This document shows, in pieces, positions 9,655-51,230 of a stretch of 64,000 nt of DNA. Source of the stretch: Sycon ciliatum. Lineage: Eukaryota; Porifera; Calcarea; Leucosolenida; Sycettidae. The notes under the pieces were generated by a model, which saw nothing but the letters and a program-made list of their open reading frames with translations, searched no databases and was not told the origin of the DNA. The position numbers and the translations under genes are program-made. The DNA lies in the NCBI RefSeq assembly GCF_964019385.1, contig NC_088645.1, forward strand, positions 11,446,492-11,510,491, written 5' to 3'. Each line of letters opens with the position of its first letter. Positions within the stretch are counted from its first letter, which is position 1.

Positions 9655-11123
9655 TCAATCATCCGCATCAGCTTTCGGGCAGTCACCTTTAGTGAGAGAT
9701 GAATACACAGCATGTGCGACGGGCATCAACGCCGTGTTGTATTGCTCCGAGTGTGTAGTATTACAGATAACCAAGCCATGACGATGGGGGCTGCTGTCAG
9801 CAGGAGTTTCCACTCCGCCGGCAGTGTTGCTGTGGGTACCAAGGCTCTCGTAAGTGCTGGGTTGCAGTTCTGCGCTTGTAGACAGCGGAATGTAGTGAGA
9901 TCCTTGTGCATGGGTGCTGGTGACATCAGATGTGTTCACATTAGAATACGTAGAATCGTCGTTCTGTAAGCCAATTGAAGATGCCATGGGCACATACTCA
10001 TCGATATGGGTTTGTATTTTGCCGTCAGAACGAGAAAAAGACGTCGGAGTCCTCACAGTATTGGCTGCTCCCTTGTCAGTAGAAGATTTACCGCCGTGAG
10101 TGTCGTTGCTTTGGAGATCAATACTTTGGTACGGGTGAGGTTGTGTTTGCATACTTGTTGACAGTGGTGTGTATTGTGGCAGTTGTTCTTCATCACTAAT
10201 GTCTGCATGTGTCTCCAGATCAGCCGACAGGGAAACGTGATTGTGTACGGTATTCAATGAATCCATGTGCACATACTCATCCCCATGGTCCTGGTTTGCA
10301 GCGTCAGTGATGGCAGGCGACCAAGTCGTGCTGGCGGAATCGTTTTCTTCATTCGGAGCTTCAATAGCGATATAGTAGGGACTCTCAGACGAATTTATTA
10401 ACGCTCTATTGGATGCTTCAGGCAGAGTTGGGAGTGTCCGTGGGACACGACAGTTGCACAGTTGCTCATTCTGCAACCCTGATTGGCCAGCTGCGGACAG
10501 GGAATCACGCTGCTTGATTCGATGTAGAAGTATCACGAATACAGACAGCGTCAGGAGGAGCAAAGGCACAACGATGCCCAGGATAATACCGGTTGATGGC
10601 CCTGTTTTCACAATGATGCGGCTATCCAAAAATTCTGTACTGCTAGGCTTTGATGTGGATGGGGAAGACGATTCAGCGAAGTCTCCTGTAGCGGCTGTGT
10701 GTTTGGTTAAACTGCTGGTAAGTGCTGCACTCTTAATTGCGAGAGACGATATAGAAACCCTTGTACTTGTGGCTGCTTCTGACGCGGGCAATCGAACAAA
10801 CTCAGTAGCAGTTTGTGCAGCAGAGGACAATATGTCCTTACTTCTGTCAGAAATGGTTGGTGGACTGGGATTTGTAGTAAGTGTCGCTGTAGTTGCTTCA
10901 GTGGTAACCACCAGAGAAACAGCAGTAGTTGCGGTAGGCTTTGCATTGGTGCTCGGAAGGGCAGAGGTTGCAGCTTGTGTTGGAGTAGTGGTTGGACACG
11001 TGTGGTTAGATGCAGTACCACAATAGTATTGATAGTGATTTTTACCACTCGCTCCTAATGCAGGACAGCTTTGATAGAGTGTTTGGCAGTTGCCACATGC
11101 AGCTTGTCCGCACGCATCTGATG
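9655..11123 (-). CDS. R2 receptor exon 3, A type (terminal exon)
   Basis: 1469 nt: 488 residues and TGA. The acceptor is CATTCGGCAG before 11123, phase 1. Order: six-Cys module (residues 4-43), Ser/Thr/Ala-rich mucin-like stalk to about 175, membrane helix about 178-200 (GIILGIVVPLLLLTLSVF), then a tail of about 288 residues. The tail has ten tyrosine sites, including two YxxM (EYVHM, EYVPM), YSNV (YxN type) and several Yxx(L/I) such as QYTPL, HYIPL, TYESL and VYSSL. These suit SH2 docking after tyrosine phosphorylation. With exons 14966-15475 and 16307-16391 it gives 687 aa. Its stalk is about 40 residues longer than in B-type genes. The open frame upstream of the acceptor starts with TTG and is intron. 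Confidence 0.85.
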
Positions 11124-11689
11124 CTGCCGAATGAAAAACATAAATACCAGGTAGAAGTATCATTGAACGCTGATGGTGAGCCAATGTGATTAGGACAAAA
11201 ATGTTACGAATGTTACGAACTCAGGGCGACGAATGTCTCAGTACTCGCATTCGCTGACTGTATATGATCTGGTTACATTTGTGGACAGTTAGTCATAACT
11301 CATAACATCTCGTAAATCACAATTTCGAATTTGAAACTTCGCAGGCACGCGGTGAGGTTATCATCCGTCTTTCTGGATGTAGCCCGTAAATCGACTGATG
11401 ACCGTGAAAAATGTAAAAAGAGAACGGTTTCGGACATAATTTCCCTTGCATGATTCATTTCCCAATGTTTTGATTCAGCTCTTCACCATGGTGTAGTGAT
11501 TAGGAATGGTAACCATGGTAACCGAACATGTTGGTCTTCCGTCAAAGAGGATCTGGAAGGTTCTGGACCTTGAAGAATGTCTAAATATATTGAGCAAGTT
11601 TACTTTTATAACATTTATTTTTATGAAAGTACACATGCCTACATAGAACAGAAGAGAGTAACAACAACAAAAACAACAACAACAACCAG

Positions 11690-11747
<58 letters not shown>

Positions 11748-12177
11748 GCAAGAGAAATTAGGGGACTGCAAAGGGAGTGTAGATGCCATAAAGCTGTGCA
11801 TGTGAGGTGAGGTGCGCTCCCCCGTCCAATGGTCTAAAACAGTACTTTTAGTTCTCTGGACGAGTGAATACCGCAGCGTTTTGGACGTCGTTTTTACCCA
11901 TACCTACATTTATGAACGTCCCACTTGAGATGAAATTCGTGATGATGCACCTGTGGCCGAGTAGTTATCTCCTGCGCTGTGCCAAACCGGATGGGCTCGG
12001 CCTCAATTCCCACCAATTTTCGAAAAAAAAGAGGGCCAAAGGTTTTCTAGGTGTCTCGGGGAAAGAAGTTGAAATGATTGTATCAGGCATGAGCAAAATG
12101 TACTTGAAGTAATTACTTTCTCCAAACAGCCCACACGCTACTAAGGAACGTACCACCATCAGGCTTGGTATCTGCAG
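11124..12177 (-). other. R2 intron 2, with a (CAA)n tract at about 11661-11750
   Basis: Homologous to the R1 segment 1-1152 and duplicated at 45970-47006. It contains a CAA microsatellite of about 90 bp without the LINE seen in R4 and R6. No coding feature recognised. Confidence 0.6.
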
Positions 12178-12179
12178 TA

Positions 12180-12378
12180 GGATCCGGCGGATTCTGCCTG
12201 CAGAAAAATTGGCAGAATTCGGTACTCTTTCTGGTAAGTTTCATGCCTGTTTGGTATGTGGATAAAAAAATGGAGCAGAATTCGAGAAATTAACCGCCAT
12301 AAGGTTTGTATGGTTCTGCCAATTTCACTGCTTTTCGAGCAGAATCTGCCACCTTTTCGAGCAGAATCCTCGGGTCCC
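12180..12378. mobile_element. 199-bp MITE with TA duplication
   Basis: Imperfect terminal repeats GGATCCGGCGGATTCTGC and (reverse complement of the right end) GGGACCCGAGGATTCTGC. TA occurs on both sides (12178-12179, 12379-12380). It lies inside the 3' part of the R2 P exon; the P exon of R1 has none. Duplicated at 47009-47207. The TA target suggests a Tc1/mariner-type MITE. Confidence 0.7.
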
Positions 12379-13272
12379 TAATCAGCAGGGATTTCCCCTC
12401 TTTGGAGATCGTTGCTATGGGGACCAAGACATTCGTAATGGTTGCCATGTGCTTGTGTGCACGTGGATAATAACATGTAGTTTCGTTCCTGCGCTTCAGC
12501 ACTGGCATGTTCAGCTGTCTCTAGATCAGCATACAGCGAATCTTGTGTTTCTTCAATATTAGATAGTGCCATTGACACCTGTGCATGGACACAATCCTGC
12601 TTTGTGCCGTCCGTCATGGAGCAGAACGTGAGTGTGTTTGCGGTGATGTTCTCGTTCGTAGAGTCTATGGCTCCAATAAAGTATGGGCTCTGGGATGTAT
12701 TAGTTGCTACTTAGGCGTATTGAGGGGGGGGGGGGAGGGGCGGACTGTGGTATACGGGGTGTGGTTGGAGTCTGCAAGCTATCAGCTTTTAAATTTTCTC
12801 GTCGAGATTGGCCGTTTGCTGAGAGGGATTCGTGCTCAATTCGATACGGAAGTACGAGTAAAATGGAGAGAGTGAGGAGAAGCAAGGGAATACTGAAGCC
12901 TGGAGTAAGACCATTTGCTTGCGCTGTTGGTGGAAGAATAATGATCCTCTCCGCGGCTGTTGATGGAGAGGGTTTAGCTGCAGCAACTGTGTTGGCGTTA
13001 GTCCGTAGAGTAGTAATGGCAGACAATATAGCTCTTGTGGAGGTGTTAGAGTAGCGCCACTTGTTGCTTGAGGTACTATAGAGGTTTAAACTAGAGGAGA
13101 GAGTGTACTTCGTGTAGTGAGGTGCACTGGAGTAGTCGTTGGACACGTGTAGTAGTAGATGCAGTAGTACAATAGCATTGGAAGGGAGTTTTACCAGTTA
13201 CTTCTAGCCCAGGACAGCTTTGATAGAGCGTCTGGCAGTCGCTACATGCACCATGGTCGCACGCATTAGACG
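12379..13272 (-). pseudogene. R2 P exon: older terminal exon, frameshifted, acceptor intact
   Basis: The acceptor AG is at 13274-13273 in the phase expected after exon 2. It encodes the Cys module (NACDHGACSDCQTLYQSC), then runs out of frame: the region matching TACACGTGTCC in the live exon is 2 nt longer here, giving a stop at 13091. The stalk and helix (IPLLLLTLSILLVL) follow in another frame. The tail (SLYADLET, NYMLLS, HYECLG motifs) is in a third frame beyond a G-run at 12723. If spliced in, it would give a short secreted product ending about 60 residues into the exon. Confidence 0.75.
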
Positions 13273-13329
13273 CTACAGTAATAAGTTCAGAAAGTAACAT
13301 ATTACGAAAGATGTTACAAGGGCGGTGAT

Positions 13330-13712
13330 TAGTAAAGAATGTGTCTTCTCCGAACGTCGGAACTCGCGCTTTCTGCCGTCTGACTTGACACTTGACTGAC
13401 TCACGCCTCACAACGAAGAGCACTACCGGGGTACATAATGCACTGTTCTCAGCAGAGCAGAAATTTCATGAGAACACTCCAGCTCGATTGATGAAGAGGT
13501 TGGTGCGACACACAATTGCCAAGCTCAATTGATGAGGTGTGAATTCCCCGAAACACTCTGTATTGAGAGGGGAGTGGTGCTGTCTTGAAGGTTTGCGGAG
13601 TGGAAGGTTAGGCGGGCTTCTCGTGTGCTCCAGACGCAGTTGTGAGACAGTCAAGTGTCAAGTCAGTCGGCAGGAAGCAAGCGCTCCGACGTTCGGAGCA
13701 GATTATTTCTTT
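13330..13712. repeat. Imperfect inverted repeat next to the R2 P exon
   Basis: Same arrangement as at 2236-2560. Left arm near 13350-13425; right arm near 13625-13705 (GTCAAGTGTCAAGTCAGTCG, then GCTCCGACGTTCGGAG). The loop is longer than in R1. Confidence 0.55.
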
Positions 13713-14120
13713 AAAAAAAGTAGCAGATTGTCATAGGAAATACATAATGTAAACAGATTAGGCACTTCATATTTTTCAAAGAACACAACATAAAAGTTCC
13801 AATCCTGAGGACAGAGCCTGCGGTCACCATTATTTTGGCTACTATCTTCAAAGAGATTCACTTTTACTCCGAGGTATATTCGAATCTTTCGAATCAAAGA
13901 GTCTATTCGACGTATCGAAGAAAGAAGTTGAACAATGCTTCACAGAAACCAAATCTATTATGGTGCTCCAAACACCCCGCACATTACAAAAATATCAAAG
14001 TCATGGTATCGGTTATTGATATTGAAAATTATCTTTTGTTTTCTTGCTTTGCGAGCTGGTTGCCTTTTTTCTGGACTCCCTCGATTTCATCATTCGTTGA
14101 GTCGTACCTGCCTTTCCGTT

Positions 14121-14935: not shown

Positions 14936-14965
14936 ATTAGTGCGCACCAAATACCTCATGCTTAC

Positions 14966-15475
14966 CACGGATTGTCATGGTGACAGGTTGCTCCACAGCA
15001 GCACTATAGGCAAGCGTCTGTAAGACACGTGGTGAGCTGCCTTGCGGCAAGACCCAAGACACTTCTGACGAGGCAGCTTTATAGATCAATGAGCAGCCGG
15101 CTTCCATGGTGATCCCGAAGATATATACTTCAGTAACATTGCTGGTACTAGATATGTAGTCCTTAAGGCGCACCCAAGTCCATGTTCCAACGTTCCCTAT
15201 ATGTTCACTCGGTGAAATCCTTTCAGAGGCAATCTGATACTTTCCCCCAGGGAATTCCTTCAATAGCACCAACTTCGGATTGCACAAATGTTGAGCCACA
15301 ACTGCAGTAATATCAATCTGGACAAATAGACAGCTGCTGTAGAAGGATATGTTCGGGAAAGGAATTAATGTCCGTGGCTGGATAATTGGTGAAGCACGGG
15401 GCGCGATTGTCAGCTTCATATGATTGTCAATGGTCAGATTTCGTGGAGTTTGTGACCGTGTGCATGTTGGTGATA
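14966..15475 (-). CDS. R2 receptor exon 2: variable ectodomain
   Basis: 510 nt, phase 1 at both ends. Acceptor CCACCTCCAG, donor GTAAGC. 170 residues. It keeps PNISFYSSC, LCNPKLVLLKEFPGGKY and MEAGC but has GVRLKDY-type sequence instead of the fifth Cys in R1 and R4 (WTWVRLKDY here). An extra N-glycosylation site (SNVT) is present. About 29 of 170 residues differ from its R5 partner. Joins 16307-16391 and 9655-11123. Confidence 0.85.
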
Positions 15476-16306: not shown

Positions 16307-16391
16307 CTGTTGCTCCAGTTTGCGGTAGCATCACTACGAACATTCCTACAGCAAACACCACGACCCTGAGTACCCTGTGTATCTGCTTCAT
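16307..16391 (-). CDS. R2 receptor exon 1: signal peptide
   Basis: 85 nt, ATG at 16391, donor GTAAGA. 28 residues: MKQIHRVLR, hydrophobic core VVVFAVGMFVVM, then LPQTGAT; phase 1 end. One codon longer than in R1, R4 and R5. Donor GTAAG differs from the GTGAGG of the B-type genes, matching the A/B split. Confidence 0.85.
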
Positions 16392-21089: not shown

Positions 21090-22019
21090 TCAAGCTTCAG
21101 GAACAGCGTCGACGCAGTCACTCACTAGTACAGGAGTGTAAGTAACGTGTGTGACGGGAGCAGACGCTGTGCTGTACTCCAGTGAGCGGGCGGTATTGCA
21201 GATAACCAACGTATCATCATCAGGCTTGGCGTCAACACGGGATTCCCCGCTGGGAAGGTCGCGGCTATGGGGAGCAAGACCTTCGTAAGGGTTGCGATGT
21301 GCTCGTGTACGCTTAGATAGTAGCGTGTAGTGACGTTCTTGCGCATCAATACTGGCATTTTCAGTTGTCTCCAGATCAGCATACAGCGAATCTTGGGTTT
21401 GTTCACTATTAGCTGGTGCCGTGGACGATTGCACATGGACAAATTCCGGCATGGTGCCATTAGTCATGGAACAGGACTTGGGCGTGACGTTCGCGCTCAT
21501 CGAGTCTACAGCGTCAATATAGTATGGACCCTCGGACGTGTCAGTTGCTACTTGGCGGCATTGTTCGGGGCGGGCTGTAGCAGGCGGAGGTGGTGTTGGA
21601 GTCGGCAAGCCTACCGCTTCTCTTTTTTCTTGTCGAGAGTGGCCGCGTGCTGAGAGAGATTCGCGCTTCATTCGATACAGAAGTACGAGGTAGAATGAAG
21701 AGGGTGAGAAGAAGCAAGGGAATATTGAAGCCCATAGTAAGTCCGCTTGGTTGCCCTGTCCCGGGAAGCATTATGACCCTATCCACCGCTTCTGTAGCAC
21801 TTGGTGATCCACGCTTAGATGATCCTGGCGGTGGCGCACTTGCATGTTGTGAAGATCCAGAAACTAAAACTTCCGTTGAGGTTGAGGTTGGACACGTGTA
21901 GTTAGATGCAGTACCACAATAGTATTGATAGCGATTTTTACCAGTTGCTCCTAATGCAGGACGGCTTTGATAGAGTGTTTGGCAGTTGTCACATGTAGCC
22001 TGGTTGCACGCACTGGATG
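21090..22019 (-). pseudogene. R3 exon 3 (P-like), frameshifted in the membrane helix
   Basis: Acceptor TTTCTGCAG before 22019. The Cys module is present, but the fourth Cys is replaced (LYQSRPALG for LYQSCPALG). A short stalk and helix follow (GFNIPLLLLTLFIL). An extra base (GG at 21689-21690; one G in R2) shifts the frame right after the helix, so translation ends at 21541 with no tyrosine tail. The tail itself survives in the other frame (21090-21671): PYYIDAVDS, SLYADLET, HYTLLS, PYEGL, EYSTA, TYTPV. It carries a single tyrosine-motif unit, where A/B exons have two. Confidence 0.75.
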
Positions 22020-22495
22020 CTGCAGAAATACATGTAAGGGAAAAAATTGTCGGGTTATGATCAGAAATCCATGATGGAAACAGATTTGACACTTTACTAA
22101 ATGTTTGACAAAGAACACATCTTCAAAATTGCAATCCTCAAGACAGATCACGAGGTCACCTTTATTCTGGCCGCCATCGTGAAACAGATCCGCTTTTGAC
22201 TTCGGTGCATCCGAGTCAAGGAATCTAAACGCCATAGTAATCAGCTAATTTGACCACCCTTATTAGAACGAAATACATTGTGGCCTTTGTCACTGCTGCA
22301 TTTGCTAAAGTATTCTCTCTAGCATTTTACTATTGCTCGGCTTAGAGGTCTAAGATGGGAAGCGAGTACAGTTTTACATGATTTGTGACAGTTGCTAGTG
22401 TAGCGTTCAAGCATGCCTGATAAATGTACTAATCACACCTTGCCACTGTTCGGGGAAGTAAATGAGTAGAGAGTACGGGAATGAACGGCACTTAC
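22020..22495 (-). other. R3 intron 2
   Basis: Short intron-like spacer partly matching the R1/R2 spacers (CAATCCTCAAGACAGA block near 22130). No gene seen. Confidence 0.4.
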
Positions 22496-23005
22496 CACGG
22501 ATGGTCATCGTGACAGGAGGCTCCAGCGCAGCACCCTAGGAAAACTTCTGTAAGACATCTGGTGTACTGCCTTGCAGCATTACCCAGGCGACTTGCGGCC
22601 AGATAGCTTTTAAATTCAACTGGCATCCGGTTTGCAGAGTCATTCCAATGATAAAAGCTTCTGTCGCACTGCTGTTATGAGATACGTAGTGGTCAAGGCC
22701 CACCCCGGTCCATGTAGCAGAACCCATCTTGTGTGTACTAGGTGGAATGCGTTCAGAGGCAATCTGATACTTTCCCCCATGGAATTCCTTCAATAGCACC
22801 AACATCGGATTGCACGACGTTTGAGCCACATCTGCCGTAATATCGATCTGGACAAATGGACAGCTGCTGTAGAAGGATATGTTCGGTAAAGGAATAATTG
22901 TCCGCGGTTGGAGAATTGGTCCCACACCAGGCGCACTTTCCAGCTTCATATGATTGTCAATGGTCAGATTTCCTGGACTTTGTGACAATGTGCATGGCGC
23001 CGAGA
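22496..23005 (-). pseudogene. R3 exon 2 with an internal stop
   Basis: 510 nt between acceptor TTGCAG (before 23005) and donor GTAAG. Open and family-like (LVLLKEFHGGKYQIASERI, WTGVGLDHY, LQTGC) until TAG at 22538-22536, where other genes have Phe in KF.FGAA. The stop is 13 codons before the donor. Segments such as SPGNLTIDNHMKLESAPG are shared with R5 rather than R2. Confidence 0.75.
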
Positions 23006-23086
23006 CTGCAAGGGGGAGGGAGACAGGTAGTAACATTCCCACGCAAAATACACACACGCATACGAACAAACTTTCACATAGACGTT

Positions 23087-23210
23087 GTTCTTGGTTGGAA
23101 AATGTTCAAGCACCAGGCGCACGTGTCAGCTTTATTATGGTTATGAATGGTCAAATTAATTATTTCCTCGACTTTGTGATGATTTGCACGCTGAGGATAC
23201 TGCAATATGG
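23087..23210 (-). pseudogene. Second exon 2 relic beside R3
   Basis: Partial second copy of the exon 2 start (CAGGCGCACGTGTCAGCTTT, AATGGTCAAATTAATT, GACTTTGTGATGATTTGCAC) within R3 intron 1, without an open frame. Close to the 17395-17510 relic. Confidence 0.5.
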
Positions 23211-23309
23211 ATATAAACACGTTGAAGCATTCCCACACCAGCAAACCAAGCGGACTGACACACATGCTCATTATTTACCCGGATGAACACGCTCGCTCAA
23301 GCACTCCTA

Positions 23310-23348
23310 CAAATACCACCCCCCTCCCCCCCCCACACACACGCACAA
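23310..23348. repeat. C-rich / CA tract
   Basis: Shrunken equivalent of the intron 1 microsatellite. Confidence 0.55.
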
Positions 23349-23880
23349 AAAGTAATAATTATGCACTTGCTCAGTGCTGGGAAGTAGAAAAGTAGGCAGG
23401 TTCAGGTGCTAATCTAGCTCAGAAGTATGCGTAGTGAAGCGTTCGATACCAAGAAGAAACATTAGCCACAAAGTCTATAATAAATGACCATTACTGCATT
23501 AGTGTTAGACAGCATCCCGCAATGTGCTCTCCGCCGACCCACTCAGCCTGTACATCACTAAGTTAGTATAGCGAAACAACTTCGTCGATAAATAAATATT
23601 GGAAAACCTCTGTCGGACATTGAAAATGTGGGTGATTGGACACTTTCCACATATTCTTTTCTTTATTTCCTCGAAGAGACCCCAACGGATCAATTCTCCT
23701 GGTTCTAATGGGCTGTACCTCGACACGCTCAGCGGGGATGTCATTCGGCTGCAGCAGGACTGGTTTGCAACATTGATGATCACATTGCAAACATTGATAC
23801 GGAGTACACTAAGCACCCTTGTAATTTAGCCATGTTTGTGCATGGTGAGGGCAAAACTACACGCACTTGTATCATCTTAC

Positions 23881-23956
23881 CTGCTGCTCCACTGTGCCAT
23901 GGTATCACTCCGAAAATACCTACGATGAATACCACTGTCTGCATTCTGCATTTCAT
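23881..23956 (-). pseudogene. R3 signal-peptide exon
   Basis: 76 nt, ATG at 23956, GTAAGA donor, phase 1. 25 residues: MKCRMQTVVFIVGIFGVIP then WHSGAA. The exon is intact, but the gene carries a stop in exon 2 and a frameshift in exon 3, so it is classed with pseudogene R3. A truncated secreted product is possible. Confidence 0.65.
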
Positions 23957-27939: not shown

Positions 27940-29285
27940 TCAATCATCCGCATCAACTTTCGGGTAGTCATCTTTAGTGAGAGATGTGTACACAGCATGT
28001 GCGACGGGCATCAACGCCGTGTTGTATTGCTCCGAGTGTGTAGTATTACAGATAACCAAGCCATGACGATGGGGGCTGCTGTCAGCACGAGTTTTCACTC
28101 CACCGGCAGTGTTGCTATGGGGACCAAGGCTCTCGTAAGTGCTGGGTTGCAGTTGTGCACTTGTGGACAGCGGCATGTAGTGAGATCCTTGTGCATCGGT
28201 ACTGGTGTCATCAGATGTGTTCACATTGGAATAGTTAGAATCGTGGTTCTGTAAGCCAATTGAAGATGCCATGGGCACGTACTCATCGATATGGGTTTGT
28301 ATTTTGCCGTCGGACCGAGAAAAAGACGTCGGTGTCCTCACAGTATTGGCTGCTCCCTTGTCAGTAGAAGATTTACCGCTGTGAGTGCCTTTGCTTTGGA
28401 GATCGATACTTTGGTAAGGGTGAGGTTGTGTTTGCATACTTGTTGACAGTGATGTGTATTGTGGCAGTTGTTCTTCATCACTAATGTCTGCATGTGTCTC
28501 CAGATCAGCCGACAGGGAAACGTGATCGTGTACGGTATTCAATGAATCCATGTGCACATACTCATCCCCATGGTCCTGGTTTGCAGCGTCAGTGATGGCA
28601 GGCAACACAGTCGTGCTGGCGGAATTGTTTTCTTCATTCGGAGCTTCAATATGAATATAGTAGGGACTCTCAGACGAATTTATTAACGCTCTATTGGATG
28701 CTTCAGGCCTAGTTGGGTGTGTCGGTGGGATACAAGAGTTGCCCAGTTGCTCATTCTGCAACCCTGATTGGCCAGCTGCGGACAGGGAATCACGCTGCTT
28801 GATTCGATGTAGAAGTATCACGAATACAGACAGCGTCAGGAGGAGCAAAGGCACAACGATGCCCAGGATAATACCTGTTGATGGCCCTGTTTTCACAATG
28901 ATACGGCAGTCCAAAGTTTCTGTACTGCTAGACCTTGATGTGGATGGGGAAGATGGTTCAGCGAAATCTCCTTTAGCGGCTGTGTGTTTGGTTGAACTGC
29001 TGGGAAGTGCTGAACTTTTCATTTCGAGAGACGATGTAGAAACCATTGTACTCATGGTCGTGGGTAATCGAACAAAGCCAGTAGAAGTTTGTACAGCAGA
29101 GGACGATATCCCCATACTGCTGTCAGAAACGGTTGGTGGACTGGGAATTGTGGTTGGACACGTGTAGTTAGATGCAGTACTACAAAAGTATTGATAGTGA
29201 ATTTTACCAGTTGCTCCTAACGCAGGACAGCTTTGGTAGAGTGTCTGGCAGCTGCCACATGCCGCTTGTTCGCACGCATCTGATG
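27940..29285 (-). CDS. R4 receptor exon 3, B type (terminal exon)
   Basis: 1346 nt: 447 residues and TGA. Acceptor CGTTCTGCAG before 29285, phase 1. Six-Cys module (SDACEQAACGSCQTLYQSC, then FCSTASNYTC), stalk shorter than A type, membrane helix (GIILGIVVPLLLLTLSVF), and a long cytoplasmic tail with PYYIHIEA, EYVHM, QYTSL, PYQSI, EYVPM, NYSNV, HYMPL, TYESL, QYNTA and VYTSL. These are candidate SH2-docking sites. With exons 37916-38428 and 39835-39916 the join is exactly 1941 nt (646 aa). Intron 2 is 8.6 kb and contains a LINE plus the dead P exon. The frame continues open into the intron up to a TTG at 29379; it was rejected as start because the acceptor and phase fit. Confidence 0.85.
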
Positions 29286-33270: not shown

Positions 33271-33324
33271 GGGTGTAAAAATGAAAGGTAAATGTGTATC
33301 AAAGCGGTAAGTTTCTGAAGTGAC

Positions 33325-35592
33325 TTACTGCAGGACTTGTTGGCCACTCTCAGGAGATTTTCGTTTCCGTTTTTTCCGTTGCTTGGATCCAGTGGTGGTG
33401 GCACTCTGGTCCCGATCAGGTGTGACGCTATGGCGTGAACGCTTGGATCGGTTGACTTCCCACCCGCCAGAATCAGGATCATCGTCGCTATGGCCTCCCA
33501 GCTGTGGGCCTAGGGCTCTACATGCATGGCTGTCTGCCTTCTTGGCCTCTCTGTCGGAGTCGCAGGGCAAGTTAGACAGCTGCTGGTTTTCTGGCTTGGA
33601 TAAGCTTTCGTTGTCGACCAATGACTCAGTATCAGCAGAAAGAGGCAACTCTTCAGACTCAGAGGAGCTGGAGTCGCTCTTGTCAGCTGCTGGGTGATCA
33701 GCCTGCTTAGACTTGGATGTTGGGCGTTGTGATTGGGCTTTACTTTGCTGCTCTGTCTGGGCTGGGTTTGTGGCCACATCAGACAGGAGTCGACGTGTGC
33801 GTTCAACGCCAGCTGGCCGAACAACTGTCTACAAGGCATTCGTGAGGCCCCTGATGGAGTATGCCCCGCTTGTGTGGATGGGCGCGCCAGCCAGCCACAT
33901 CCAACGTCTGGATAATGTTCAACGCCGCGCACTGCGCATCATTGGCCCTGGTGCAATTCTCCCCAGTCTGGCTGTCCGCCGGACTGTTGCTGCTCTCTCG
34001 TGCATGTACAAATTATTGCATTTCATTACTGGTCCTCCTCAGCTACTTGCTGTATTGCCACCGCATCGCGTTTCTCCAGCCAACCCCAGAACCAGGAACC
34101 AGCACAATAATGCCACCAGCCACGCCTATCAACTGTCAGACACGCTCCCTGTCTCAGCTCCATCCGTCGTGAAGCGGTCGTTCCCGTACTGCTGTATTGG
34201 CGCATGGAACTCCCTTCCTGACAGGCTGCTGTCGCAGCGCCCACACAAAACACGTTTTCAGTCATTCAAGACAAAGGTCTACCGACACCTGAGAGACAGC
34301 AATTGGTACTGGGCAACAGATTCCCTGTAATTTTTCGAGCTCGTCGCTTGCCGGACCCGCTAATCCGCGTACCTGGCCTTGCTCAGAGTGCTCAGCTGTG
34401 TTTTGCATACATGGAAAAACTTGTTATGATTCTTTTCTTTTCTCTGCTTATTCTTTTACCAGGCGTGGGCCATCCCCTGGATTATGAAAATGGGTGCCTT
34501 ATTATTTTTCTGTTTTTTAGCTTGTTTTCTTTACACTTCTTTGTGGGAGTTTCGTTTCAGATCTATTAAAAAAGTTCATAAGTTTTGGTTGATGAAGTTG
34601 ACATGTACATTGTACATCAATCCAAACACTGATAATAAACAATCTCTTTTCATCTTGTTTTTATTTTTCTAAACACCTACCGGTACTTTTACCCATTCTA
34701 CTTCCCCATAGCTAGATCTAGCTTTGCTTTACATTTCTGTTTCTTTTTCCTGGTGCGTGCTTGTGGCATTGAAGCCGAGACCTTTGGTCGGTGGAGCCCC
34801 TGGTAATCACCATCACTGCTGCCCAGTGCAGCCCCTGCTCAGTAGCTGTTTGTTTTTGTCCACATCATTATTTATTTTACGAGTTGGGTTTGTGAATAAT
34901 AGTAAAAAAAAAGTGTCTGTACATGTAGGTGACGTTGAATGCCGTGACTGCTGTGTACTACCTGTACTGGCAGTGGTACTGCGGGCCTCAGGGCAGTCCT
35001 TGGCAAGGTGCTCTGGCTTGCTACAAATCCGACACGTGGGCTTTTGGCCACTATAATGTACGCAGAAAGTGCCTTTCCCGTCTCTGGATTTCACGTACGA
35101 AGGTACGGCTTTATTCGACCCCAGTACAAAGGTTGCAAAACGGACTCCGGTTGCAATAACAACGTTGTCCCGGACCTTAAGTTTACCGTGGCGGATGGCG
35201 CCCTGCACGGTACCGTATGGAGCAAGTGCGGCTGTAATGGCGCCATCCGACACCCACACAGGAACATCGTGAATGTGCAACTGAACATGAGTGTTTTCTG
35301 TCAAGGATTTTGGAAGGATATGTTGTCCATTGATATGGAAGCCATTCTTCACGACTAACTGGGCAAGCTGGATATCTGTGAACGTTAATCTGCATTGGCC
35401 TACCGAACTGACCTGGATAGATAGGATGAGCTCAGCTCCTATTCCGTGTTGCTCGAGGCAGCTCACGTACTCGGCGAGTTTCAAATCCTTTGGAGCTGGA
35501 AATAGCACAGTTCGGGCCATCAGGTCCCTGGCGCTTACTTTCCGCCATGGGTCGACTTCAGCTGGTTCCCGAGATGTATCAGTGGTCTCCAT
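33325..35592 (-). pseudogene. LINE ORF1 (zinc-knuckle RNA-binding protein), split by a nested LINE
   Basis: The 5' part (35592-34913) starts METTDTSREPAEVDP. It has an RNA-binding-like region (VQLHIHDVPVWVSDGAI, LAPYGTVQGAI) and a CCHC knuckle (CRICSKPEHLAKDC). It is cut after SPTCTDT. The 3' part (33805-33325) is Ser/Lys-rich with basic clusters (KQRKKRKRKSPESG) and ends 54 nt before ORF2. In life ORF1 proteins bind LINE RNA as a chaperone. The uninterrupted join is seen in R6 at about 62046. Confidence 0.85.
33806..34912 (+). mobile_element. Nested 5'-truncated LINE, opposite orientation
   Basis: 1.1 kb in plus orientation inside ORF1 of the larger LINE. An open frame to 34330 gives the last 170 or so residues of a related ORF2 (GRTTVYKAFVRPLMEYAPLV, ending NWYWATDSL). 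A 3' UTR and an A run (34903-34912) follow. Its 3' end (AATAGTAAAA after a G-rich hook) is like that of the outer LINE, so they are related subfamilies. R6 has the empty site GCGTTCAGTGTCTG (62040-62053). No clear target duplication. Confidence 0.85.
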
Positions 35593-35766
35593 GATCCCGG
35601 AACGGACATATGTGGGGCTAAAACGCCCAACCACGAGATTTTTTCAGAGCTAAAAAAAGCTTTACCACACGTCACGGAGACAAAAAAACCTCTCATCATG
35701 TCTAGTACAGTGTGTTGACTACACACACCGCTGGCTATGTGGCACAGATCCACCTTGATATAGTTG

Positions 35767-36418: not shown

Positions 36419-37181
36419 CACCATCAGGCGTGGTGTCAACAGGGATACCCCTCTTTGGAGATAATTACTCTTGGGACAAAGGCCTTCGTTATGGTAGGGA
36501 TGTGCTTGTGTACGCGTAGACAGTAGCGTGTAGTGACGTCCCTGCGCTTCAGCACTGGCATCTTCAGTTGTCTCCAGATCAGCATACAGCTAATCTTGGG
36601 TGTGTACACCATTAGCATGATGGTGCCTAGGACACCTGTGCATGGACTCAATCCTGCTTCGTGCCGTCAGTCATGTAGCAAGACTTAGACGTACTCGCGG
36701 TGACGTCTGCGTTGGTAGAGCCTATGGCTTCAACCTAGTTGCGCTTAATTCGATGCAGAGGTACGAGTAAAATGAGGAGAGTGAGGAGAAGCAAGGGAAT
36801 ACTGAAGCGCGGAGTAAGACCCTTTGCTTGCGCTGTTGCAGGCAGAATAATGATCCTGTCCACGGCTGTTGATGGAGAGGGTTTAGCTGCAGCAACTTTG
36901 TTGTCGTTAGTCCGTAGAGTAGTAACAGCAGACAATATAGCTCTTGTGGAAGTGTTCGAGTAGCGTCACTTGTTGCTTGAGGTACTATAGAGGTTTTAGC
37001 TAGAGGAGAGAGTGTACTTCGTGTAGTGAGGTGCACTGGAGTAGTCGTTGGACACGTGTAGTAGTAGATGCAGTAGTACAATAGCATTGGAAGGGAGTTT
37101 TACCAGTTACTTCCAGCCCAGGACAGCTTTGATAGAGCGTATGGCAGTCGCTACATGCACCATGGTCGCACGCATTAGACG
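36419..37181 (-). pseudogene. R4 P exon, splice acceptor lost
   Basis: Copy of the R1 relic. The acceptor AG is GG (37183-37182). The Cys module (NACDHGACSDCHTLYQSC) is followed by a frame change, helix IPLLLLTLLILLVPL and an in-frame stop just after HRIKRN. It lies inside R4 intron 2 and should be skipped. Confidence 0.8.
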
Positions 37182-37915: not shown

Positions 37916-38428
37916 CACGGATGGTCATGGTGACAGGAGGCTCCACAGCAGCACCAAAGACAAACTTCTGTAAGACAAGTGGTGAGCTGCCTTGCGGCAA
38001 GGCCCAAGACACTTCTGGCCAGACAGCTTGATAGTTCACTTGGCAGCCGGCTTCCATGGTGATCCCGAGGATATATGCTTCAGTAACGCCGATATTACCA
38101 GATATCATGTATTCATCAAGGCACACCCCAGTCCATGTAGCAACATTCGTTATATGTTCACTCGGTGAAATCCTTTTAGAGGCATTCCGATACTTTCCCC
38201 CAGGGAATTCCTTCAATATCACCAACTTTGGTTTGCACAAATGTTGAGACACAACTGCAGTTATATCTACATGGACAAATGGACAGCTGCTGTAGAAGGA
38301 TATGTTCGGGAAAGGAATAATTGTCCGTGATTGGAGAATTACTACAGCACCAGTTGCACTTGTCAGCTTCATATGATTGTCAATGGTCAGATTTCGTGGA
38401 GTTTGTGACCGTGTGCATGTCGGTGATA
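37916..38428 (-). CDS. R4 receptor exon 2: variable ectodomain
   Basis: 513 nt, phase 1/1, acceptor CCACCTCCAG, donor GTAAGC. 171 residues with five Cys in the R1 positions (WTGVCLDEY retained). Differences from R1 are concentrated at HMKLTSATGAVVILQSRT, KYRNASKRI (adds an N-glycosylation site NAS), NVATW, MEAGCQVNYQA and the C-terminal LPQGSSPLVLQKFVFGA. Joins 39835-39916 and 27940-29285. Confidence 0.85.
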
Positions 38429-39834: not shown

Positions 39835-39916
39835 CTGTTGCTCCAGTTTGCGGTAGCATCACTCCGAACATTCCCATAGCCAACACCACGACCAGTACCC
39901 TGTGAATATACTTCAT
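39835..39916 (-). CDS. R4 receptor exon 1: signal peptide
   Basis: 82 nt, ATG at 39916, donor GTGAGG, phase 1. Identical to the R1 signal peptide except for the last residue (GAT for GAA). Confidence 0.85.
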
Positions 39917-41912: not shown

Positions 41913-42392
41913 ATGTGTCATCGTGAATGCTGCTGTGGGATGATCGCTGAAATGGGTGAAACTTAAAGTTGCAGTGGGCGTCGTAGTGCTCGAGGATGAC
42001 GAGCCCTACACAATAGAAGGAGACGAACCAGAAAACTTGATCATGAAGCTACACTGTTGGCCATTGCTGACACTAACTAACAGCAAGAAATATCTGCCAT
42101 AACTGTACACAAATGTACACGTTTCACTCTTCACTCGGGAGTCGTCAAATACTGACTCATAGCTTGCACTTGATCGTTGGGGCACACCAAAAACAACTTT
42201 CGGCAACACTGCCTGTTTGGGGAAGTTCTGGTCGAATCATCGGATGGATTTTCTGTCCTCGGACCCGGTCTTTGAAAATTCCACAAAATTCGGAGTGCAA
42301 AAGGTCTCTACTATTATTCGAAGGTTCAGCATAAGCAGGGCATTTATACCCATCAGAAATACCGATAATTATCTTCGACGTATACTTTTCAT

Positions 42393-43130
42393 CTCAATTC
42401 CGGTGACTGCATCAGTGCTGTGCGACACGACTGTCATCACCCCGTCACCTACATGTAAGTATCTTGGGCTCCACATCGATGAGCACCTGCCCTTCCGACC
42501 CCATATCTCCCACCTCTGTGATGAAATTAATAAGAAGCTAGGTGCTTTTAGGCGAGGCAGAGACAACCTGGACAGTAAGGCCCTCCGAGCGTTCTATCTC
42601 GGAGTTATACAGAGCAAATTAGAGTACGCAGCACATCATAATGTTCATTCATTACACGCCGCAGAATACGATAAGCTTCTAGGACTGAGCCGCCGAGCTG
42701 TTTCTGTTGTATTTGCCTACCCTTCCCGTGCTGGCATTGAGCCCATTTTGCGTTGTCGCAAACTCCACCCACTCAGCCTACGCCTCACTCTTTTAGCTTT
42801 TCATTTTTACTTTTCGGTGCATCAGATCCCTGCAGTCCCCTCATCTCCCAAATCTTTACGACCTGAAATGATGCTACCCACACTACCTCCCAAACCAGAG
42901 GCCAAACATCCAGTAGTCTCTTTCTCCCCCCATTCATGTCCCGTCCAGGCTCTACAGTCTCTCATTTTTTGGTGCTGTACGCTTTAATGCACTAACCGCT
43001 ATCATTCGATCCCAGCGTACTTGGCCTGCTTTTCGCGCTAGCTGCTCACAATTTCTTCTTGGGCACCCTGTAAGAAGGCCATAGGCCTGTTGGGTATACC
43101 CAAGAAAAATAACTACTACTACTACTACTA
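42393..43130 (+). mobile_element. 5'-truncated LINE (duplicate of 7431-8173)
   Basis: Same insertion point (after TATACTTTTCAT). The reverse transcriptase fragment ends at 42987 in a different frame from the first copy, and a 3-nt difference lies at SKLEY.AHHN. The (CTA)n tail is retained. Confidence 0.85.
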
Positions 43131-44499: not shown

Positions 44500-44500
44500 T

Positions 44501-45969
44501 TCAATCATTCGCATCAGCTTTCGGGCAGTCACCTTTAGTGAGAGATGAATAAACAGCATGTGCGACGGGCATCAACACCGTGTTGTATTGCTCCGAGTGT
44601 GTAGTATTACAGATAACCAAGCCATGACGATGGGGGCTGCTTTCAGCAGGAGTTTCCACTCCGCCGGCAGTGTTGCTATGGGTACCAAGGCTCTCGTAAG
44701 TGCTGGGTTGCAGTTGTGCGCTTGTAGACAGCGGCATGTAGTGAGATCCTTGTGCATGGGTGCTGGTGACATCAGATGTGTTCACATTAGAATACGTAGA
44801 ATCGTCTTTCTGTAAGCCAATTGAAGATGCCATGGGCACATACTCATCCATATGGGTGTGTATTTTGCCGTCGGACCGAGAAAAAGACGTCGGTGTCCTC
44901 ACAGTAATGGCTGCTCCCTTGTCAGTAGAAGATTTACCGCTGTGAGTGTCGTTGCTTTGGAGATCGATACTTTGGTATGGGTGAGGTTGTGTTTGCATAC
45001 TTGTTGACAGTGATGTGTATTGTGGCAGTTGTTCTTCATCACTAATGTCTGCATGTGTCTCCCGACCAGCCGACAGGGAAACGTGAGTGTGTACGGTATT
45101 CAATGAATCCATGTGCACATACTCATCCCCATGGTAGTGGTTTGCAGCGTCAGTGATGGCAGGCGACCAAGTCGTGCTGGCGGAATTGTTTTCTTCATTC
45201 GGAGCTTCAATATCGATATAGTAAGGACTCTCAGACGAATTTATAAACGCTCTATTGGATGCTTCAGGCCTAGTTGGGAGTGTCCGTGGGACACGACAGT
45301 TGCACAGTTGCTCATTCTGCAACCCTGATTGGCCAGCTGCGGACAGGGAATCACGCTGCTTGATTCGATGTAGAAGTATCACGAATACAGACAGCGTCAG
45401 GAGGAGCAAAGGCACAACGATGCCCAGGATAATACCGGTTGATGGCCCTGTTTTTACAATGATGCGGCTATCCAAAAATTCTGTACTGCTAGGCTTTGAT
45501 GTGGATGGGGAAGACGATTCAGCGAAGTCTCCTGTAGCGGCTGTGTGTTTGGTTAAACTGCTGGTAAGTGCTGCACTCTTAATTGCGAGAGACGATATAG
45601 AAACCCTTGTACTTGTGGCTGCTTCTGACGTGGGCAATCGAACAAACTCAGTAGCAGTTTGTGCAGCAGAGGACAATATGTCCTTACTTCTGTCAGAAAT
45701 GGTTGGTGGACTGGGATTTGTAGTAAGTGTCGCTGTAGTTGCTTCAGTGGTAACCACCAGAGAAACAGCAGTAGTTGCGGTAGGCTTTGCATTGGTGCTC
45801 GGAAGGGCAGAGGTTGCAGCTTGTGTTGGAGTAGTGGTTGGACACGTGTGGTTAGATGCAGTACCACAATAGTATTGATAGTGATTTTTACCACTCGCTC
45901 CTAATGCAGGACAGCTTTGATAGAGTGTTTGGCAGTTGCCACATGCAGCTTGTCCGCACGCATCTGATG
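44501..45969 (-). CDS. R5 receptor exon 3, A type (terminal exon)
   Basis: 1469 nt, 488 residues and TGA, acceptor TTCTGCAG before 45969. Differs from R2 at about 19 positions, nearly all in the cytoplasmic tail (for example SAGRETHAD for SADLETHAD, HYMPL for HYIPL, EQYNTVL). Cys module, stalk and helix are almost unchanged. All ten tail tyrosines are kept. With 49791-50300 and 51149-51230 it gives 2061 nt (686 aa). Predicted single-pass surface receptor signalling through tyrosine phosphorylation. Confidence 0.85.
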
Positions 45970-46532: not shown

Positions 46533-46575
<43 letters not shown>

Positions 46576-47006: not shown

Positions 47007-47008
47007 TA

Positions 47009-47207
47009 GGGTCCGGCGGATTCTGCCTGCAGAAAAATTGGCAGAATTCGGTACTCTTTCTGGTAAGTTTCATGCCTGTTTGGTATGTGGATAAAAAAAT
47101 GGAGCAGAATTCGAGAAATTGCCCGCCATAAGGTTTGTATGGTTCTGCCAATTTCACTGCTTTTCGAGCAGAATCTGCCACCTTTTCGAGCAGAATCCTC
47201 GGGTCCC
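47009..47207. mobile_element. 199-bp MITE (duplicate of 12180-12378)
   Basis: Left end GGGTCCGGCGGATTCTGC pairs better with the right end than in the R2 copy. TA on both sides. Confidence 0.7.
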
Positions 47208-48103
47208 TAATCAGCAGGGATTTCCCCTCTTTGGAGATCGTTGCTATGTGGACCAAGACATTCGTAATGGTTGCCATGTGCTTGTGTGCACGTGGATAAT
47301 AACATGTAGTTTCGTTCCTGCGCTTCAGCACTGGCATGTTCAGCTGTCTCTAGATCAGCATACAGCGAATCTTGTGTTTCTTCAATATTAGATAGTGCCA
47401 TTGACACCTGTGCATGGACACAATCCTGCTTTGTGCCGTCCGTCATGGAGCAGAACGTGAGTGTGTTTGCGGTGATGTTCTCGTTCGTAGAGTCTATGGG
47501 TCCAATAAAGTATGGGCTCTGGGATGTATTAGTTGCTACTTAGGCGTATTGAGGGGGGGGGGGGGGAGGGGCGGACTGTGGTATACGGGGTGTGGTTGGA
47601 GTCTGCAAGCTATCAGCTTTTAAATTTTCTCGTCGAGATTGGCCGTTTGCTGAGAGGGATTCGTGCTCAATTCGATACGGAAGTACGAGTAAAATGGAGA
47701 GAGTGAGGAGAAGCAAGGGAATACTGAAGCCTGGAGTAAGACCATTTGCTTGCGCTGTTGGTGGAAGAATAATGATCCTCTCCGCGGCTGTTGATGGAGA
47801 GGGTTTAGCTGCAGCAACTGTGTTGGCGTTAGTCCGTAGAGTAGTAATGGCAGACAATATAGCTCTTGTGGAGGTGTTAGAGTAGCGCCACTTGTTGCTT
47901 GAGGTACTATAGAGGTTTAAACTAGAGGAGAGAGTGTACTTCGTGTAGTGAGGTGCACTGGAGTAGTCGTTGGACACGTGTAGTAGTAGATGCAGTAGTA
48001 CAATAGCATTGGAAGGGAGTTTTACCAGTTACTTCTAGCCCAGGACAGCTTTGATAGAGCGTCTGGCAGTCGCTACATGCACCATGGTCGCACGCATTAC
48101 ACG
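47208..48103 (-). pseudogene. R5 P exon, frameshifted, acceptor intact
   Basis: Acceptor AG at 48105-48104. Reads A-C-N-A-C-D-H-G-A-C (one extra Cys compared with R2) and reaches a stop at 47922 after 59 residues. Helix and tail follow in other frames; the G-run near 47553 is longer than in R2. Could act as an alternative terminal exon giving a soluble product. Confidence 0.75.
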
Positions 48104-48149
48104 CTACAGTAATAAGTTCAGAAAGTAACATATTACGAAAGATGTTACA

Positions 48150-48545
48150 AGGGCGGTGATTAGTAAAGAATGTGTCTTCTCCGAACGTCGGAACTCGCGC
48201 TTTCTGCCGTCTGACTTGACACTTGACTGACTCACGCCTCACAACGAAGAGCACTACCGGGGTACATAATGCACTGTTCTCAGCAGAGCAGAAATTTCAT
48301 GAGAACACTCCAGCTCGATTGATGAAGAGGTTGGTGCGACACACAATTGCCAAGCTCAATTGATGAGGTGTGAATTCCCCGAAACACTCTGTATTGAGAG
48401 GGGAGTGGTGCTGTCTTGAAGGTTTGCGGAGTGGAAGGTTAGGCGGGCTTCTCGTGTGCTCCAGACGCAGTCGTGAGACAGTCAAGTGTCAAGTCAGTCG
48501 GCAGGAAGCAAGCGCTCCGACGTTCGGAGCAGATTATTTCTTTAC
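48150..48545. repeat. Imperfect inverted repeat next to the R5 P exon
   Basis: Duplicate of 13330-13712. Confidence 0.55.
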
Positions 48546-48951
48546 AAAAAGTAGCCGATTGTCATAGGAAATACATAATGTAAACAGATTAGGCACTTCA
48601 TTTTTTTCAAAGAACACAACATCAAAGTTCCAATCCTGAGGACAGAGCCTGCGGTCACCATTATTTTGGCTACTATCTTCAAAGAGATTCACTTTTACTC
48701 CGAGGTATATTCGAATCTTTCGAATCAAAGAGTCTATTCGACGTATCGGAGAAAGAAGTTGAACAATGCTTCACTGAAACAAAATCTATTATGGTGCTCC
48801 AAACACCCCGCACATTACAAAAATATCAAAGTCATGGCATCGGTTATTGATAATGGAAATTATCTTTTGTTTTCTTGCTTTGCGAGCTGGTTGCCTTTTT
48901 TCTGGACTCCCTCGATTTCATCATTCGTTGAGTCGTACCTGCCTTTCCGTT

Positions 48952-49332
48952 ATGCCTCCAAAGAAATCCAACGCTCCCTCGGCAGCGCAGCTGGTACCTC
49001 CAAGGTGAAAATCCAAGGCCCCCTCGGCAGCGCAGCTGAGCGTGGAGCTCAATTCAATGAGGGAAAAGTTTAAGGCGGAAAAGGAAGAGAGCGCCCTGAG
49101 AATCAGGCTCCTCGAGGGACAGCTGGAACGGGGAAACGAGTCGTCCTCGTCCAAGCGTAAACGTCGTAATGCTTCTGTCTCGCCGTCGTCTTCATCGTCT
49201 TCGTCATCATCTTCTTCATCGTCCTCGTCATCTGATTCGTCTGACTCGTCGGACGACTCAAGCCGGAAGTTTTGTTTTCTTGCTGTGGCTGTCCCCGCAG
49301 TTGTTTATTCTGTGATGAGTGTGTGTGTATGA
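48952..49332 (+). pseudogene. Plus-strand Ser-rich fragment in R5 intron 2
   Basis: Duplicate of 14121-14480. In-frame TGA after 18 codons (R2 has TAA one codon later). The KSxAPSAAQL repeat, predicted coiled coil, basic patch and Ser run are otherwise kept, followed by a CCCCGCAG sequence that could serve as an acceptor and by a GT repeat. Confidence 0.4.
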
Positions 49333-49790
49333 GTGTGTGTGTGTGAGAGAGAGAGTGTGTGTGTGTGTGTGTAGGTGTGGTGTCGGAGTCCTTCGCGAGG
49401 CTTTGCAAGCCCGCGAGTGGACCAAACTACCGCACGAAGACGACGACTTGGAACGACTCTGAGCATTGGCTCATGGAATGTTCGCTCTGTTGATGAGAGT
49501 GATGGAACACTTCTAGCGGCAGCCGTGAGAGGAATCGTTTCCGATGATAAGCCAGATCCATAGCTGCTGGAGATGGCTCTCTCGAACATGGTCCCGCTCG
49601 TCGTTTTATATTGTCGGCCCCGTAAGGGGACACGTGACCGTAATGGCAGTGTTTACCAGGACCAGGACCAGGAGGTGTGTGTGTGTACCTGTATGTGTGT
49701 GAGTATGTGTGCAGTATTGACTTGTGAGTGAGAAAAGAACGGTTATTGATAATGGAAATCATTAGTGTGCACCAAATAACTCATGCTTAC

Positions 49791-50300
49791 CACGGATGGT
49801 CATGGTGACAGGAGGCTCCACAGCAGCACCAAAGGCAAACGTCACTAAGACACGTGGTGAGCTGTCTTGCGGCAAGACCCATGTGACTTCCGGAAAGGCA
49901 GCTTTATAGGTCATTGAGCAGCCGGCTTCCATGGTGATCCCGAAGATATATACTTCAGTAACATTGCTGGTACTAGATATGTAGTCCTTAAGGCGCACCC
50001 CAGTCCATGTTGCAACGTTCCCTATATGTTTCCCCAGCGGAATGCGTTCAGAGGCAATCTGATACTTTCCCCCAGGGAATTCCTTCAATAGCACCAACTT
50101 CGGGTTGCACAATTGTTGAGACACATATGCAGTAATATCAATCTGGACAAATAGACAGCTGCTGTAGAAGGATATGTTCGGGAAAGGAAGAAATGTCCGT
50201 GGCTGGCGAATTGATGAAGCACCAGGCGCACTTTCCAGCTTCATATGATTGTCAATGGTCAAATTTCCTGGACTTTGTGACCGTGTGCATGTTGGTGATA
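49791..50300 (-). CDS. R5 receptor exon 2: variable ectodomain
   Basis: 510 nt, phase 1/1, acceptor CCACCTCCAG, donor GTAAGC. 170 residues. The N-terminal part (SPGNLTIDNHMKLESAPG) matches R3, the middle (KDYISSTSNVTEVYIFGI) matches R2, and the end (VTFAFGAA, KHELFGAH frame) is closer to R1 and R4. This is a mosaic pattern. Confidence 0.85.
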
Positions 50301-50405
50301 CTGGAGGTGGGAGAGAGACATGTAACAACATTACCTACCCGGTTATGATGTACACACCCATACACAGATACACATGCCCATGTACTCGTTCATAACGTTA
50401 TGTGC

Positions 50406-50544
50406 ACATGCCCCCACCCCACCCCCAGATGCACACACACATACACACACGCCTACACGCACACGCACACACATTCCCTTTCTCTCTCTAGCAACCACGC
50501 ATACCTACACATACGCACACACAAGCACGAACACACACACGCGC

Positions 50545-50575
<31 letters not shown>

Positions 50576-50577
50576 AC
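50406..50577. repeat. (CA)n/(CT)n microsatellite, R5 intron 1
   Basis: Variant of the intron 1 tract, with the C-run broken by A residues. Confidence 0.9.
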
Positions 50578-50666
50578 GTCACGTACTCGCGCAACTATAG
50601 ATATGCACCCGCACTTCTTCAGTGTCAGAAAAGTGATTGGTTGTGTTCGTGCGATACAGTGTGCAG

Positions 50667-50963
50667 ATGGCGTCAAGAAAGGGATCATTAAGGCCACGTC
50701 GTACTCTCAGCAAACGAAGTCTTGAAGCATGTCCGCAACGAGAAATCATGCGAGAAGCAACCAATACCCTCCAAAGTATAGACTTGAAGCTCCTACAAGG
50801 TCGGCCATTCACCTGTTTCGTTGTAGACGGTCTGCACTTGCCAATTCAAATAAGTAAAAATTATACTTGCGTACATCGTTTCCCCGTAGTTGGATGTACA
50901 GTATATATACACTGGGTAGCGCACCTGGTCAAAAGTCGTCTAGTGAATGCACTTGTTATGTAG
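50667..50963 (+). other. Short plus-strand ORF in R5 intron 1
   Basis: 99 codons, equivalent of 3973-4266, with about ten residue changes in the first 60. Confidence 0.25.
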
Positions 50964-51148
50964 TGATGTTGCTATTCAGATATGTGAAACGTATTTGGAT
51001 AGATTAATAAGGGGTAAGCAGCGGCATTCGGCCGTGTACAGATTTTTCATCAACCAACACACCATGACTACGCTCTCCGGCCAATAGGTAAGGTAAGGTA
51101 TTTGTTCTCACGCTAGGATAATCGTGATCCTTTTAAGGATAATCTTAC

Positions 51149-51230
51149 CTGTTGCTCCAGTTTGCGGTAGCATCACTACGAACATTCCTACAGCAAACAC
51201 CACGACCAGTACCCTGTGAATATACTTCAT
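51149..51230 (-). CDS. R5 receptor exon 1: signal peptide
   Basis: 82 nt, ATG at 51230, donor GTAAGA, phase 1. MKYIHRVLVVVFAVGMFVVM then LPQTGAT. Its start resembles R1/R4 (MKYIHRVL) and its core resembles R2 (VVFAVGMFVVM), another sign of exchange between units. Confidence 0.85.

Follow-up and report, generated by a model that had tools for sequence, protein, structure and literature searches.

A clustered family of predicted tyrosine-tailed receptors with recombining ectodomain exons in the calcareous sponge Sycon ciliatum

A minus-strand array of three-exon genes

A 64-kb window of the Sycon ciliatum genome (C3:11446492-11510491, where C3 denotes contig NC_088645.1) was read in six frames and aligned to itself, revealing a recurring minus-strand unit, present as R1–R6, that comprises a signal-peptide exon, an ectodomain exon, a decayed tail exon (B) and an intact tail exon (A). 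Three units could be joined from end to end: R2 (85+510+1469 nucleotides [nt]) encodes 687 amino acids, R4 (82+513+1346 nt) 646 and R5 (82+510+1469 nt) 686, the summed length being a multiple of three and the sole stop codon terminal in each case. Their introns are phase 1 and bounded by GT and AG, with GTAAG or GTGAG donors and CAG acceptors. The signal exon and the single hydrophobic helix seen in the sequence suggest single-pass membrane proteins. As we picture them, R1–R6 would be type I cell-surface receptors with a secretion signal and a variable ectodomain encoded by one symmetric exon, followed by a Cys-rich module, a Ser/Thr stalk, one membrane helix and an extended tail in which there are some eleven tyrosines.

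The original prediction had described a minus-strand array of signal, 510/513-nt ectodomain and terminal exons in which R2, R4 and R5 join in exact multiples of three ending at a stop; exons, phases, splice sites, lengths and joins all agree with that description. The extent of the array needed correction, as R1 continues past the edge of the window, R3 is broken and the R6 tail is also a member, and the decayed second tail lying between ectodomain and tail in R1, R2, R4 and R5 had been overlooked (Table 1). A comparison by eye shows R3 to be a close but broken copy of the gene LOC135812463.

In the B tails of R1, R2, R4 and R5, the Cys motif is open and well preserved, the frame is lost beyond it, and the splice acceptor is intact in two of the four. 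Across a wider set of copies (L-numbers denote genomic ectodomain or tail loci), it is intact in R2, R5, L012, L024 and L021, reads GG in R1, R4 and L002, and the R6 copy has a stop. A truncated secreted form may still be produced from exon B; as a general account of the exon, we set a secreted isoform aside, since loss of the acceptor in several copies and the stop in the R6 copy look more like decay.

Genome-wide, 35 ectodomain matches were found, 34 of them without a stop in the matched stretch, and 31 lie in one 525-kb cluster (C3 11,309,536 to 11,834,068); the others are two on the small contig C286, a lone exon on C8 and a fragment on C4. Among the 30 matches examined as loci, every exon has a phase-1 AG acceptor and GT donor, 29 are free of stops (R3 being the exception) and 24 are preceded, at no more than 1.5 kb, by a signal exon that has a GT donor. 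All 19 A-type tails fall inside the C3 cluster and none of these matches has a stop; 17 reach the usual stop codon, while L054 shifts frame near the end and L061 terminates prematurely. Simulated neutral evolution to the observed divergence would leave about 3.5 of 30 ectodomains and 3.2 of 19 tails stop-free; with the consensus as its starting point and the copies taken to be independent, this is a rough control. Given intact splice sites in 30/30 loci and open ectodomains in 29/30, we conclude that the exon array exceeds chance. Ectodomain exons of one kind precede other tail types as well as the A type; a single outer module is therefore joined to several tails.

Further features of the family's layout were noted. 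The cluster switches strand between C3:11.309-11.375 Mb and C3:11.385-11.645 Mb, and near-identical copies occur on opposite strands (L010/L011 and R1/L002), which suggests either that an inverted duplication happened recently or that the assembly is at issue. Locus L018 holds 200 N. The lone exon on C8 (L004, C8:33446188-33446700) is open with intact splice sites, and neither a signal nor a tail exon was found in the surrounding 20 kb.

Table 1. Positions of receptor exons, relic tails and other reading frames; numbers refer to the 64-kb window unless preceded by C3
Feature	Position	Strand	Remarks
R1 exon 1	4796..4877	-	signal peptide
R1 exon 2	2883..3395	-	ectodomain, 513 nt, both boundaries phase 1
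R1 B relic tail, Cys motif	2033..2157	-	acceptor AG changed to GG
R1 tail exon	C3:11445110-11446450		about 40 nt beyond window edge
R2 exon 1	16307..16391	-	signal peptide
R2 exon 2	14966..15475	-	ectodomain, 510 nt
R2 B relic tail, Cys motif	13148..13272	-	acceptor AG retained, frame lost past motif
R2 exon 3	9655..11123	-	Cys motif, Ser/Thr stalk, membrane helix, A-type tyrosine tail, stop
R3 pseudogene	21090..23956	-	ectodomain exon 22496-23005 with TAG; tail 21090-22019, frame change at membrane helix
R4 exon 1	39835..39916	-	signal peptide
R4 exon 2	37916..38428	-	ectodomain, 513 nt
R4 B relic tail, Cys motif	37057..37181	-	acceptor AG changed to GG
R4 exon 3	27940..29285	-	A-type tail
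R5 exon 1	51149..51230	-	signal peptide
R5 exon 2	49791..50300	-	ectodomain, 510 nt
R5 B relic tail, Cys motif	47979..48103	-	acceptor AG retained, frame lost past motif
R5 exon 3	44501..45969	-	A-type tail
R6 exon 3	56196..57541	-	A-type tail, only R6 exon in window
R6 likely ectodomain exon	C3:11512126-11512635		outside window
Non-LTR retroelement	30355-33324	-	endonuclease and reverse transcriptase in one 989-amino-acid frame; R4 intron 2
Second retroelement copy	58602-61570	-	three open frames; upstream of R6 tail
Zinc-knuckle reading frame	34813-35643	-	276 amino acids, CCHC
Open reading frame	7114-8037	+
Open reading frame	42163-42987	+
Open reading frame	53682-54212	+

Relatives and paired-tyrosine tails

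A first protein search returned 28 proteins (P-numbers), eight from RefSeq S. ciliatum and 20 from EukProt with scpid labels, which we take to be S. ciliatum transcript peptides. Several ectodomain exons are 100% identical to RefSeq proteins (L014 to P0003, L018 to P0028, L025 to P0001, L026 to P0018, L027 to P0027 and L030 to P0023). When residues 25-250 of P0001 were searched at E values up to 10, 28 matches emerged from 1319 candidates; a profile search, which the original prediction had proposed, gave 31 from 7999 at E values up to 0.1. All matches in both carry S. ciliatum or scpid labels, and the claim of a lineage-specific, tyrosine-tailed receptor family is well supported; relatives from other species were not found by a search that needs shared five-residue words and similar length, and which distant ones may escape. 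None of the open-access titles and abstract openings searched mentions the family by name.

In the RefSeq and EukProt relatives, the signal, ectodomain and tail blocks are joined in the predicted order, and over its first 39 residues P0002 matches the R2 signal and ectodomain start at all but one position. If the EukProt peptides are transcript-derived, the family is transcribed. Peptides P0002 and P0005 carry one ectodomain start after different signal exons, possibly through alternative splicing of signal exons, although assembly of close paralogues could produce the same picture. The S. ciliatum proteins LOC135811431, LOC135811432, LOC135811434, LOC135812463 and LOC135812464 and one named "mucin-5AC-like" belong to the same family and run likewise from a signal through ectodomain, Cys module and stalk to a membrane helix; their tails are of other types, and the A-type tail of R1, R2, R4, R5 and R6 occurs in none. 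Although RefSeq models exist for at least six neighbouring members, the tails of the A-type genes at C3 11.31-11.64 Mb match RefSeq proteins at 39% identity at best, through either an annotation gap or lack of expression. A membrane helix at residues 392-417 of P0003 was modelled with high confidence. Three ectodomain open reading frames (ORFs) gave no immunoglobulin (Ig) match in Pfam at E≤1, and the fold models were weak.

The A-type tail is rich in ordered tyrosine motifs. In R4, the tyrosines at positions 84, 118 and 132 of the tail have counterparts at 177, 211 and 225, a 93-residue repeat with the pattern [DEYVxM ... YxxL-x10-Yxx(I/L)]. The YxxL/I-x10-Yxx(L/I) pair occurs in all 19 A tails (twice in 16, once in three) against a mean of 0.02 in shuffled sequences, although these tails are one family and not 19 independent tests; among the 28 protein relatives, it is present in P0003 and P0026 only. 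Immunoreceptor tyrosine-based activation motifs (ITAMs) canonically space their two sites by x6-8, with a relaxed range of x6-12, and the relaxed pattern YxxL/I-x6-12-YxxL/I is found in 19/19 A tails. By its sequence, the pair is ITAM-like, though its spacing lies outside the canonical range; the hemITAM pattern occurs in 0/19. YVxM (1.79 per tail versus 0.01 in shuffles) and sites resembling immunoreceptor tyrosine-based inhibition motifs (ITIMs; 3.05 versus 0.39) are enriched. The original prediction had listed Yxx(L/I), YxxM and YxN as single docking sites: of these, YxN is near chance (0.79 per tail versus 0.63 in shuffles), and the pairing and the 93-residue repeat had been missed. In the 17 intact tails, 8/11 tyrosine columns are invariant, compared with 142/278 other columns.

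A search of the S. ciliatum genome for partners of such a tail gave 86 matches for SH2 and 141 for kinases at E≤1e-20; in five cases an SH2 match has a same-strand kinase match no more than 3 kb away, and a Syk gene was not resolved among them. Kinase-domain ORFs also form tandem arrays at C5:28.06-29.91 Mb (24 matches) and C14:17.91-18.05 Mb (nine), at the same threshold. According to PMC9601881, kinases of the Syk family occur in animals from sponges to primates.

Divergence and exchange among ectodomain exons

Divergence between close copies can be confined to the outer exon. R1 and R4 differ at 52/513 sites of the ectodomain exon but at 13/1000 upstream and 17/700 downstream, with the change falling at the exon borders (intron 1 differs at 17/1399 in the block profile), so that copies whose introns are 1-2% apart can reach 10% in the ectodomain exon. 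L012 and L024 differ at 86/510 exon sites versus 5/700 downstream, but their upstream flank is 9% diverged. A flank below 8% is found in 42 of 435 pairs, which are not independent of one another; the exon exceeds both flanks in 17 of these, one flank in 23 and neither in two. Fisher tests on 12 hand-picked pairs gave an exon excess at p <0.01 in seven. R2/R5 is mixed (ectodomain 9.2%, intron 1 8.2%, intron 2 0.6-2.5%, tail 2.1%). Exon-limited divergence thus characterizes part of the close pairs.

The ectodomain exons recombine. In a test of the pairwise homoplasy index (PHI) type on 30 ectodomain sequences, neighbouring sites were more compatible than shuffled ones (z -6.9), as they were for 25 sequences after removal of near-duplicates (z -7.1) and for third positions alone (z -3.0; 7/5000 shuffles as low). 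Pairs that differ by 14-20% overall share identical runs of up to 88 bases. With ectodomain and tail assigned to one gene by adjacency, nearest neighbours by ectodomain and by tail disagree in 15/16 genes, although a weak link between the two distances persists (Mantel r 0.28, p 0.01); ectodomains are thus uncoupled from tails. Between the R1 and R4 ectodomains, synonymous (dS 0.106) and non-synonymous (dN 0.110) divergence climb together, a pattern for which imported, already diverged sequence is a better explanation than selected point mutations. At 38 of the 52 differences, both states occur in other copies (0.32 expected if random).

The window also contains other reading frames. A non-LTR (long terminal repeat) retroelement occupies R4 intron 2, and a second copy upstream of the R6 tail differs from it at 20/2969 sites; the near-identity of the copies indicates that the block was duplicated after insertion, or homogenised. 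Between R4 and R6, the tails differ by 3.5%, the intron retroelement by 0.7% and the remaining aligned sequence by 2.2%. The zinc-knuckle frame is perhaps the first ORF of the same element. Three plus-strand ORFs, which by eye presumably represent reverse-transcriptase and transposase fragments, had no Pfam match at E≤0.1. We rejected a reading of R1–R6 themselves as retroelement or repeat ORFs, the element in the R4 intron being separate, as well as phage, transfer RNA (tRNA) and RNA-gene readings, as tRNA and Rfam matches are absent from the window.

A candidate locus for sponge recognition

We suggest, with a probability of roughly 0.65, that these genes are a Sycon-specific, recognition-type receptor family diversified by exchange between paralogues. 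Under this model, neighbouring paralogues would exchange sequence and selection for differing outer domains would retain the results, so that many ectodomains would come to sit on a small number of standard tails. A ligand on a cell surface or microbe, once bound, would trigger phosphorylation of tail tyrosines and docking of SH2 proteins, with the paired YxxL/I sites serving Syk-, Src- or SHP-type and YVxM sites PI3K p85-type docking; the cell would thereby respond to self/non-self or to microbes. The recognition role put forward in the original prediction gains weight because divergence is exon-limited and the ectodomain recombines, while its immune or allorecognition part is as yet a proposal from sequence.

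Several observations weigh against this reading. The A-type tail is absent from the proteins and peptides found (best 33-39% identity), in searches that miss much longer or shorter models. The exon excess is not significant in 5/12 pairs (R2/R5, L008/R5, R5/L010, R1/L002 and L010/L011). Mean dN over mean dS is 0.71 across the 435 ectodomain pairs, with dN above dS in just 75, and we dropped positive selection by dN/dS on these grounds. Differences in the introns recur in other copies at a rate like that of the exon (7/11 and 23/26); since introns behave like the exon, the shared-variant test was likewise discarded as proof of exon-specific conversion. Canonical YxxL/I-x6-8-YxxL/I motifs occur in 0/19 A tails, the spacing being ten, and the coexistence of ITAM-like pairs with common ITIM-like sites is compatible with either an activating or an inhibitory signal.

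The lack of an A-tail protein would also be expected of a largely unexpressed, decaying array of disused segmental copies, or of a partial assembly product with haplotypes placed in tandem. Broken R3, the altered tail ends of L054 and L061, the decayed B tails, the near-identical opposite-strand copies and the 200 N in L018 fit such an origin. We consider it improbable, however, as stop-free ectodomains (29/30) and A tails (19/19, 17 to the usual end) far exceed the approximately 3/30 and 3/19 under neutrality, splice sites are intact in 30/30 ectodomains, tyrosines are more conserved than other tail columns, and haplotype duplication leaves an exon ten times as diverged as the intron unexplained.

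More specific or different roles are rival readings. Tentatively, the cluster may be the complex by which a calcareous sponge achieves histocompatibility or immune recognition, with about thirty paralogues in which exchange would rewrite the outer exon and leave introns and paired-tyrosine tails more alike. By analogy with Alr in Hydractinia, it might be a histocompatibility locus read when tissues of two individuals touch, a possibility that we rate below even odds: paralogues in a cluster, an outer domain that varies, a single pass through the membrane and tails with several tyrosines are reported for Alr and Botryllus receptors (PMC11067881 and PMC12065747), but the variation seen here is that between copies. 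Comparably doubtful is recognition of microbes or symbionts, in which germline pattern receptors, each for a different glycan or surface, would be useful to a filter feeder. The same anatomy would also suit cell adhesion or gamete recognition with no immune role, in which divergence stems from sexual conflict or drift, and the sequence says nothing of the ligand; we regard this as very unlikely, as the paired YxxL/I and YVxM motifs indicate a signalling role.

Comparison with known systems brings out both likenesses and differences. Like the Sycon family, Alr is described (PMC11067881, citing Huene et al. 2022) as a cluster of single-pass receptors whose ectodomains vary, with numerous paralogues and with pseudogenes, and the Sycon genes display a clustered multigene locus with a pseudogene (R3), signal peptides and a predicted single pass. 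Alr ectodomains are reported as immunoglobulin-superfamily, and the three Sycon ectodomain ORFs compared had no Pfam Ig match; ITAM/ITIM motifs are also reported for Alr (PMC12065747). The Botryllus fuhc receptors (fester, FcoR) are likewise clustered recognition receptors (PMC12065747), the FcoR-type family being reported with ITIM and hemITAM motifs, but their ectodomains are Ig/Sushi and hemITAM is absent from the 19 Sycon A tails. Allelic polymorphism and function are known for Alr, while the Sycon family is known from its sequence. The Sycon receptors gave no Pfam match to Calx-beta in seven receptor ORFs (E≤1) or four RefSeq relatives (E≤0.1). Calx-beta domains are found in sponge aggregation factors, which are secreted proteoglycan cores and, according to Grice et al. 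2017 as cited in PMC12065747, candidate allorecognition molecules of sponges.

According to a 2025 review (PMC12065747), the proteins proposed for allorecognition in sponges, cnidarians and ascidians are not conserved between these groups, and the cnidarian and ascidian candidates have ITAM/ITIM-type motifs in common. The Sycon family offers a clear example of exon-confined divergence in a germline array and a concrete candidate locus for sponge recognition in a chromosome-scale assembly, which lets one ask directly whether an ITAM/ITIM-type read-out reaches back to sponges. If the cluster is indeed a recognition complex, unrelated outer domains would have converged on, or inherited, one tyrosine read-out as far back as sponges.

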